Below, piece by piece: positions 19,298 through 32,362 of a stretch of 32,362 nucleotides of DNA; positions within the stretch are counted from its first letter, which is position 1; the number at the start of each line of letters is the position of its first letter. The translations under genes were made by a program, and so were the position numbers. The notes under the pieces were generated by a model. The model ran no database searches. It was not told the DNA's origin and was given only the letters and a program-made list of their open reading frames with translations. The stretch is taken from NCBI GenBank assembly GCA_003246765.1, contig QKDA01000034.1, forward strand, positions 1 through 32,362, in the 5' to 3' direction. Origin of the DNA: Spirochaetales bacterium. GTDB lineage: Bacteria > Spirochaetota > Spirochaetia > Treponematales > Treponemataceae.

Positions 19298-19370
19298 AGG
19301 TCAGTAGCTCTAATGGTAGAGCGTCGGTCTCCAAAACCGAATGTTGCGGGTTCGAGTCCTGCCTGGCCTG
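19298..19370 (+). tRNA. tRNA-Trp (anticodon CCA)
   Basis: A 73-nt cloverleaf. The acceptor AGGTCAG pairs with CTGGCCT; discriminator G at 19370. D-stem GCTC/GAGC, anticodon stem TCGGT/ACCGA with loop CTCCAAA, giving CCA. T-arm GCGGG/CCTGC with loop TTCGAGT. CCA is not encoded. tRNA-Trp directly before secE is a common bacterial arrangement. Confidence 0.96.
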
Positions 19371-30949: not shown

Positions 30950-31420
30950 ATGGGAAGAAAGAACAAATCCATCGATCGGCCTATCGCGCCGGATCCCAAG
31001 TACCACAGCGTGGTGGTGTCCAAGTTCGTCAGCCGCATGATGCTCGACGGCAAGAAGGCCACCAGCGTCAGGATCATCTATGACGCCATGGACAAGATTC
31101 GCGAGAAGACCGACAAGGAGCCTCTCGAGGTGTTCCTGAAGGCCCTCGACAACGTGAAGCCCATGGTAGAGGTTAAGAGCCGCCGCGTCGGCGGTGCCAC
31201 CTATCAGGTGCCCATCGAGATCCGCGAGAGCCGCCGCGAAGCCCTCGGCATGCGCTGGGTCATCAACGCCGCCCGCTCCCGCTCCGGCCATGAAATGGCC
31301 GAACGCCTGGCAGCCGAGCTTGTGGACGCATTCAACAGCACCGGTACCGCCTTCAAGAAGAAGGAAGATACCCACAAGATGGCCGACGCCAACAAGGCCT
31401 TCGCCCACTACCGCTGGTAA
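30950..31420 (+). CDS. rpsG: 30S ribosomal protein S7
   Basis: 156 residues, normal length. It binds the 3' major domain of 16S rRNA and nucleates head assembly. Family motifs: [24 protein letters not shown] and [29 protein letters not shown]. The ribosome site is AAGGAGG. A strong terminator follows, so the rpsL-rpsG unit ends here; fusA does not follow as it does in E. coli. Confidence 0.98.
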
Positions 31421-31427
31421 AACGGCG

Positions 31428-31454
31428 AAAAACCTCCCGAAAGGGAGGTTTTTT
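31428..31454 (+). terminator. Intrinsic terminator after rpsG
   Basis: CCTCCC (31433-31438), GAAA loop, GGGAGG (31443-31448), extended by A-T pairs, and TTTTTT (31449-31454). Confidence 0.92.
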
Positions 31455-31486
31455 CTTATAGTACGGGGTCTGGGGCGTTTGGCCCC

Positions 31487-31515
31487 TTGACTATTTTTCC
31501 GTCAACCGGTATAAA
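31487..31515 (+). promoter_or_regulatory. Promoter of the structured RNA upstream of tuf
   Basis: TTGACT (31487-31492), 17-bp spacer, TATAAA (31510-31515): five of six matches in each box. Start would be near 31522. A GGGGC/GCCCC stem (31472-31486) lies just upstream. Confidence 0.65.
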
Positions 31516-31521
31516 CAAGTA

Positions 31522-31830
31522 CCTTGAAGTATCTCTCCGATCGGTGAGATAACTTCGGTGTTCTTTGAGAGTCCAGGGCGCAGCCGTAAAGCCTGAGGCA
31601 TTTGAGCCTCCCGCAGGTGTGCGCGACCCTTGGTACGGACATCGGGTGTCGTTGACAGCCGATTTTTAGACGGTTGGTATCAGGGGTGCAGTGGATCGGG
31701 CGCGTTATGCGCCCGCAGCTTCCTAAGCGGAAGCCCTCATCTGGATACCAAACCAGTCATCGGTGGCGAATGCCGGCGGTGATGATCAGGTGGTACCGGC
31801 AGAGTCGTTCGAAAACCTATGAACGGCGCG
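31522..31830 (+). ncRNA. Candidate structured RNA, family not recognised
   Basis: A dense series of hairpins begins right at the predicted start site. Stem 1: GAAGTATCTC (31526-31535) with GAGATAACTTC (31546-31556, one bulged A). Stem 2: CCAGGG-CGCA (31573-31582) with TGCG...CCCTTGG (31620-31633), enclosing GAGGC/GCCTC (31595-31610). Stem 3: ATCGGGTGTC/GACAGCCGAT (31641-31663, one G-G mismatch) followed by T residues to 31667. Stem 4: GGTTGGTATC (31672-31681) with GATACCAAACC (31744-31754), enclosing GGGCGC/GCGCCC (31698-31714) and GCTTCC/GGAAGC (31718-31734). Stem 5: TGCCGG/CCGGCA (31770-31801). Stem 6: GTCGTTC/GAACGGC (31804-31826). It could be a stand-alone RNA or a long tuf leader. I do not recognise tmRNA, RNase P RNA, 6S, SRP RNA or a standard riboswitch in it. 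31831-31940 shows only small stems. Confidence 0.45.
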
Positions 31831-31946
31831 TAAATGCTACAGTCCTCGCGGACTCCCCTCTGATTATCCCCATCGACACGTCATTGGTCTCTGTGCATAC
31901 GCGTTCGGGTATTACCTCCGTTCCTGGTTCAGGTACGGGGTTTACT

Positions 31947-31952
31947 TATAAT
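31947..31952 (+). promoter_or_regulatory. Putative -10 box of a tuf-proximal promoter
   Basis: A perfect TATAAT 48 nt before the tuf ATG; the -35 region (around 31924-31929) is poor. A second TATAAT at 31979-31984 is too close to the ribosome site to be useful. Confidence 0.35.
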
Positions 31953-32000
31953 GCGGGAAATATTTTTTATCGCTTGCCTATAATCTTTCAGGAGGATCAA

Positions 32001-32362
<362 letters not shown>

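Follow-up and report, generated by a model that had tools for sequence, protein, structure and literature searches.

What occupies the 580 nt between rpsG and tuf, the gene for elongation factor Tu (EF-Tu), in this Spirochaetales genome, and does it act on the gene that follows it? Few bacterial proteins are as abundant as EF-Tu, and the coupling of its synthesis to ribosome synthesis is little known outside a few model species. In the window, by which we mean the whole 32,362-nt stretch of DNA analysed, the rpsG stop codon lies at 31418-31420 and the tuf ATG at 32001-32003, with no conserved frame in the gap. The contig end cuts tuf (32001-32362), which was identified from its sequence and an in-frame protein search and is preceded by a Shine-Dalgarno sequence, AGGAGGA, at 31990-31996; the features described below from promoter P1 to tuf all lie on the + strand. 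A preliminary description had placed in this gap a highly structured RNA with its own promoter, either a new small RNA or a long EF-Tu leader. Comparison of related sequences makes it well supported that the RNA is a structured 5' leader of tuf, about 480 nt in length.

The promoter described after rpsG, which we term promoter P1 (31487-31515), is present as TTGACT at 31487-31492 and TATAAA at 31510-31515 with 17 bp between them, a spacing kept in relatives. The pattern TTG-N20-TATAA occurs upstream of the RNA at 74 of 107 family loci, compared to 0-15 loci for any other spacing from 8 to 35, and this sharp peak makes promoter P1 credible. A consensus promoter scan of the window did not list it among its calls because the scan accepts nothing but T as the final base of the -10 element. 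Hexamer scores barely differ from those of mononucleotide-shuffled sequences (8.53 vs 8.27), and we prefer the spacing test because its separation is clearer. A TATAAT just before tuf (31947-31952) had also been described as the gene's own promoter; the sequence is there, but it lacks a good -35 element, and the 17-bp spacing appears before tuf at only 7 of 105 loci. That count is still the peak, with 0-3 loci at other spacings, and leaves room for a second promoter in a few relatives, but as the main tuf promoter it is unsupported when set against the frequency of promoter P1-type spacing upstream of the RNA. A terminator-like site follows rpsG at 39 of 74 loci. Between rpsG and the leader promoter, several near-perfect palindromic hairpins resembling REP-type elements were seen in L002 and L003, from the genus relatives G006 and G003.

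Does the gap encode an RNA structure or a protein? The sequence 31510-31955 folds with a minimum free energy (MFE) of -181.8 kcal/mol compared to -154.3 +/- 6.1 in a set of 100 dinucleotide-shuffled sequences (z -4.49; 0/100 as low), and the - strand gives z -2.96, so that the RNA is indeed highly structured as first described. The earlier view that no protein frame fits also held. Reading back from the tuf start, the in-phase frame stays open for 115 codons in the window, which raised the possibility of an N-terminal EF-Tu extension through the leader, but it is closed in the seven genus relatives (10-49 codons); over 105 loci its median length is 12 codons, with at least 60 in 7.

The predicted RNA begins with a P1 hairpin of variable sequence (31526-31556), seen in the MFE fold only, followed by a mostly unpaired box, CGGTGTTCTTTGAGAGTCC (31556-31574), that is nearly invariant in eight genus sequences and whose anchor pattern is found at 87 of 107 loci. 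Next come the P2 domain (31578-31624) with CCGTAAA at 31584-31590, its CGTAAA being present in 86 of the 87 anchored sequences, and a long helix, P3 (31627-31686), formed by CCCTTGGTAC and GTATCAGGGG and capped by a GTT-triloop hairpin at 31646-31658. Two variable hairpins, CGGGCGC/GCGCCCG and GCTTCC/GGAAGC (31697-31733), again come from the MFE fold only. The core (31748-31793) consists of CCAAACCAG, P5 (31757-31764/31775-31782), TGATCA and GGTGG. P6, a hairpin whose loop begins GA (31804-31827), lies inside P7 (31783-31868), in which the TGATCAGG region would pair with TCTGATTATC (31859-31868). Closest to tuf, a possible hairpin P8 (31899-31955; ACGCGTT...AATGCG), which holds the TATAAT, was recognized by eye in genus relatives and is absent from the consensus fold that the eight genus sequences give for this stretch; in 42 other family sequences, a hairpin in this position covaries.

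We then asked whether the RNA belongs to a known class. A search of 31500-31960 with Rfam 15 gave no match at E up to 10, the T-box model (RF00230, which we take to be the T-box leader) included; the listed matches cluster around the rpsG terminator, and the only match in the window to reach its gathering score is a tRNA at 19298-19370. Five family and eleven outside-family loci searched at E up to 1, again with RF00230 included, yielded nothing relevant except a sub-threshold TD-2 RNA (RF03162) in L176. This best TD-2 match (L176 1374-1460, +) scores 36.1 bits against a gathering score of 48.7, with none in the window, and the RNA thus falls outside that family; the match sits just upstream of the core, in hairpin-rich sequence after rpsG. 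A genome of another family, f5, has a partial tmRNA match (L183 3444-3567, -; 44.3 bits, E 1.2e-14, gathering score 47) no more than about 3 kb away from its leader. The initial impression that the region matches no common RNA family was therefore upheld, in relatives as in the window.

Mimicry of 23S rRNA was considered as well. GAUAGGUGG presumably resembles, over a short length, the L1-stalk region of 23S, short enough for chance. Our covariance model of the core, R3, gave nothing convincing against partial 23S regions of genomes G030 and G028 (best E 0.98 at a 23S locus), and we therefore see no sign of rRNA mimicry in these regions. A phage link was likewise set aside: blastn against a phage collection returned no match to the region, and one exact 19-mer in a viral contig that lacks tuf and is unmatched by R3 (E up to 1) was taken as chance.

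How widely is the RNA distributed? DNA similarity found the region in 8 of 12 genus genomes, the genome itself counted. Model R1, which represents the 5' domain and was built from the genus alone, matched 4 of 146 order genomes, all four in the family, and model R2 matched 135 of 195 family genomes, with two matches each in G198 and G206, one of those in G206 at a contig start. R3, built from 69 sequences and used in an order-wide search of 291 genomes, matched 104 of 118 family genomes. We searched for the EF-Tu N-terminus in 17 genomes without a match, namely the 14 of the family and three from the genus, and it was missing in 11 of the 17 (8 of the 14). The 14 thus comprise eight whose assemblies lack the start of tuf, four in which R3 with filters off does match upstream of tuf (E 1.4e-7, 1.9e-6, 1.6e-5 and 4.1e-4), and two with diverged leaders. 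In these two, L234 (E 0.18) and L233 (E 3.6), the core is badly diverged, and 5'-domain and P6-like sequence before tuf is kept as judged by eye. G030, which we take to be Treponema pallidum Nichols, keeps the core and is missing the 5' domain. In another genome (G131), two adjoining R3 matches upstream of tuf (L238 1168-1319; E 0.005 and 4.1e-4) may reflect a large P5 insertion or a duplicated core. An exact core 19-mer is found in 12 stretches of named genomes, including uncultured Spirochaetales, Treponema vincentii, T. putidum and Brucepastera parasyntrophica; ten of these match R3 strongly and the same ten carry tuf, and the remaining two, L222 and L227 (R3 E 0.14 in L227), do neither and were treated as chance.

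Pairing is conserved in these relatives, with compensatory changes supporting P2, P5 and P6. For the core we used a plain MAFFT alignment that was not fitted to the structure (A5, 69 sequences), reached by reducing 107 loci to 94, 77 and finally 69 through the removal of 13 odd or cut cores, of near-identical sequences and of 8 with odd P6 ends. In this alignment 96.9% of cells are paired compared to 84.3 +/- 0.5% after shuffling, and double changes number 195 compared to 58.6, a value reached in 0 of 500 shuffles; the figures describe typical members, since the 38 excluded loci of the 107 include the least typical cores. Compensatory changes occur at 7 of 8 pairs in P5 and at 7 of 7 in P6. 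The CCARACC/GGUGG pairs hardly vary and so provide no test of themselves. Across P2 (69 aligned family sequences), its inner hairpin and the GUY-triloop hairpin that caps P3, 90.5% of cells are paired compared to 66.7% shuffled, with 316 double changes compared to 97.6, figures that are flattered because the structure was predicted from the same alignment.

For the two longer helices we compared each sequence's own pairing with that of swapped partners, retaining some rows in which the anchor was misplaced (L001 and L094 among those for P7). P3 scored 7.26 compared to 6.24 +/- 0.19 (50 sequences) and P7 scored 6.29 compared to 5.84 +/- 0.09 (104 loci), which lends the predicted P7 pairing modest support. 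The invariant core, covered in the window by the R3 match at 31743-31827, is predicted to be an irregular hairpin, CCARACC/GGUGG capped by P5, in the order outer helix, AA bulge, ACC/GGU, internal loop and P5. The outer helix beside CC/GG differs between families and pairs in the examples read by eye, and several family members are unpaired there. Nearer tuf, a second block, TGTGT.TGCGAA...TTCTGGCTTAAAGTGCA.CACA, is nearly invariant at 50 loci (L072 among them), where it sits about 50-120 nt ahead of the gene. It forms a covarying hairpin just 5' of the Shine-Dalgarno sequence in the group with GGCTTAAAGTGC before tuf (50 loci, 42 aligned; double changes 66 compared to 17.6 shuffled).

Is the RNA a separate transcript, or part of the tuf message? 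In the family, 105 of 107 loci have tuf downstream in the same orientation, with 164-331 nt between it and the core, and the other two sequences reach contig ends 98 nt (L070) and 84 nt (L087) after the core. By in-frame protein search, tuf identities are 84-100% within the family. The promoter P1 spacing, the tuf-proximal hairpin, the Shine-Dalgarno openness and the bases after GGTGG were scored with tuf starts placed one base too far downstream, with no material effect on the outcome. The gene rpsG was found upstream at 74 of 107 loci, and in the genus relative G010 a 466-codon ORF on the opposite strand (L220 2961-4361, +) separates rpsG from the RNA, which stays with tuf. Downstream, the order read in G006, the nearest relative, is tuf followed by rpsJ, rplC, rplD, rplW, rplB and rpsS.

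A small RNA acting in trans and merely neighboring tuf could account for the promoter and the compact structure, and also for terminator-like sites, which occur between core and tuf at 9 of 105 loci compared to a shuffled mean of 2.2 and a largest value of 6. Such an RNA would be expected to end in its own terminator and to be unlinked to any one target. Instead, the RNA adjoins tuf wherever tuf can be scored, even when rpsG is not adjacent, most loci carry no terminator-like site before tuf, and some family members have a covarying hairpin that extends nearly to the Shine-Dalgarno sequence. In the window, a consensus scan of 31400-32050 gave no terminator-like sites; the scan is insensitive, since the rpsG terminator hairpin also went unlisted. 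The stem at 31641-31663, proposed earlier as an attenuator or the 3' end of a small RNA on account of its T-run, covaries, but the T-run is absent from the seven aligned relatives, and we dropped both proposals. Of the two alternatives first raised, then, the EF-Tu leader is favored by tuf linkage, the upstream promoter and the scarcity of terminators, and the free small RNA, which we now regard as highly improbable, is not. What we find is an RNA of conserved structure ahead of a translation operon, and from the promoter and terminator patterns we infer that it lies in the 5' UTR.

The strongest single check on this linkage comes from outside the family, because R3 holds no tuf sequence. R3 gave weak matches in two other families of the class, ten in f5 and four in f13 (E 2.6e-4 to 0.01), and when fetched blind to context all 14 of 14 proved to sit upstream of tuf in the same orientation, at a distance of 152-275 nt, with tuf identities of 83-93%. 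A sequence rule, CCAAACC...AGGTGG upstream of tuf, picked out further loci in f6 (3/3), f8 (1/1), f9 (1/1) and one more f5 genome (1/1), and none in f4 (0/1), f7 (0/3) or genomes outside the class (0/20). With filters off, R3 backs only L197 of f9 among these (E 0.007; L189-L192 E 0.49 to 4.1, L196 unlisted), and presence in f6 and f8 therefore stands on the rule. In f6, the P5 loop of L190 and L192 carries GCCGTCGGC or GCCGTTGGC triloop hairpins, and L192 also TTTGAGAG; they recall 5'-domain elements of Treponemataceae, though from another order. By eye, promoter-like sequence lies between motif and tuf in f6, and in f9 together with a terminator-like hairpin, so in these two families the motif may act on read-through mRNA, and in f6 it would be confined to such mRNA. 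From these sequence comparisons, the predicted leader RNA is conserved across Treponemataceae and traceable in other families of the class Spirochaetia.

What might the leader do? Its conserved structure, strict position before tuf and conserved upstream promoter lead us, by comparison, to regard it as a tuf leader, and it probably helps set the amount of translation machinery. We consider it reasonably likely that it acts in cis on tuf and the S10 operon, in feedback by an operon product. A transcript from promoter P1 would run through the leader into the tuf-rpsJ-rplC-rplD... (S10) operon mRNA, and the unbound leader would be ON. In excess, an operon product, which we infer to be an S10-operon ribosomal protein or EF-Tu, would bind the invariant core; the bound core, via P7 and the tuf-proximal hairpins, would then reduce translation of tuf or destabilize its mRNA. 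In this scheme the 5' P2-P3 domain would have been added at the level of the family, with G030 an example without it.

All 34 leaders sampled from 103 loci fold better than their own shuffles, and their Shine-Dalgarno sequences are more open than when the sequence upstream is shuffled (mean 0.51 compared to 0.31; higher in 26 of 34). An open Shine-Dalgarno sequence in most loci fits a leader that is ON by default. It would also suit a constitutive stabilizer or translation enhancer that shields the tuf message or leaves the ribosome site accessible but senses nothing, as would the hairpins that flank the Shine-Dalgarno sequence in several lineages. We judge this role unlikely, given that invariant bases on both core strands and conserved unpaired boxes appear to exceed the needs of stability. 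In the window the Shine-Dalgarno sequence is mostly paired (0.29 open compared to 0.18 shuffled), and in f5 it seems, by eye, to lie inside a small hairpin. Several points count against the feedback leader: terminator-like sites exceed those in shuffles, f6 has its promoter-like sequence downstream of the motif, the cores of L233 and L234 have diverged, P7 has modest support, P8 was recognized in the genus by eye, the Shine-Dalgarno sequence of the window is mostly paired, and the G030 Shine-Dalgarno sequence is no more open than its shuffles (0.32 compared to 0.35).

The complex fold and nearly invariant unpaired boxes could alternatively belong to a ligand riboswitch or T-box-like sensor that responds to a small molecule or to uncharged tRNA and so has direct control of EF-Tu supply. 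The NCCA end of a tRNA could pair with GGUGGN, which offers a UGGN-like strand with variable N. Yet the two bases after GGTGG are TT in 41 loci, TA in 21, TG in 19, AT in 9 and others in 17 (n=107), so that the base after N is not fixed as A, and pairing with CCARACC accounts for GGUGG just as well. With no conserved terminator/antiterminator and no Rfam match over the RNA, a sensor of this kind seems quite unlikely. In its boldest form, which we hold only tentatively and think rather unlikely, the RNA would be a new sensor class that monitors translation itself, through uncharged tRNA ends, free EF-Tu or the EF-Tu:aa-tRNA pool. Much of Spirochaetia would use it to adjust how much EF-Tu and ribosomal protein is made, and the syphilis agent would have a minimal version. 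A leader RNA conserved in this way makes EF-Tu control testable in vitro, including for species that are hard to manipulate, and it fills a gap in the RNA catalogues for spirochaetes.

Among titles and abstract openings in the open-licence PubMed Central literature (supplements and most subscription papers lie outside this set), we found no description of a spirochaete tuf leader, and the word tuf is absent from the main texts, supplements aside, of PMC8040213, PMC11109978, PMC8632094, PMC7160235, PMC2864571, PMC6429828 and PMC12223175. The first of these describes candidate structured RNAs of Treponema that lie upstream of the L7/L12 and L20 genes; like our RNA they are candidate leaders of translation genes, and they differ in the genes concerned. 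The spirochaete leader shares with T-box leaders a long multi-hairpin 5' architecture and a UGGN-like strand beside a helix, and differs in its variable base after N, the lack of a terminator/antiterminator pair and of an Rfam match. Feedback control of translation operons is familiar from E. coli, where L4 regulates the S10-operon leader and S7 the str operon (rpsL-rpsG region). The control proposed here would be of this type but would use a different RNA. As in str/S7 control, the RNA lies among translation genes and adjoins rpsG; unlike it, the RNA follows tuf when an ORF splits off rpsG, and it has no Rfam counterpart. The S10/L4 leader differs in its first gene and is likewise unmatched through Rfam; both are structured leaders of a translation-machinery operon, with tuf at the head of the S10 operon in G006.
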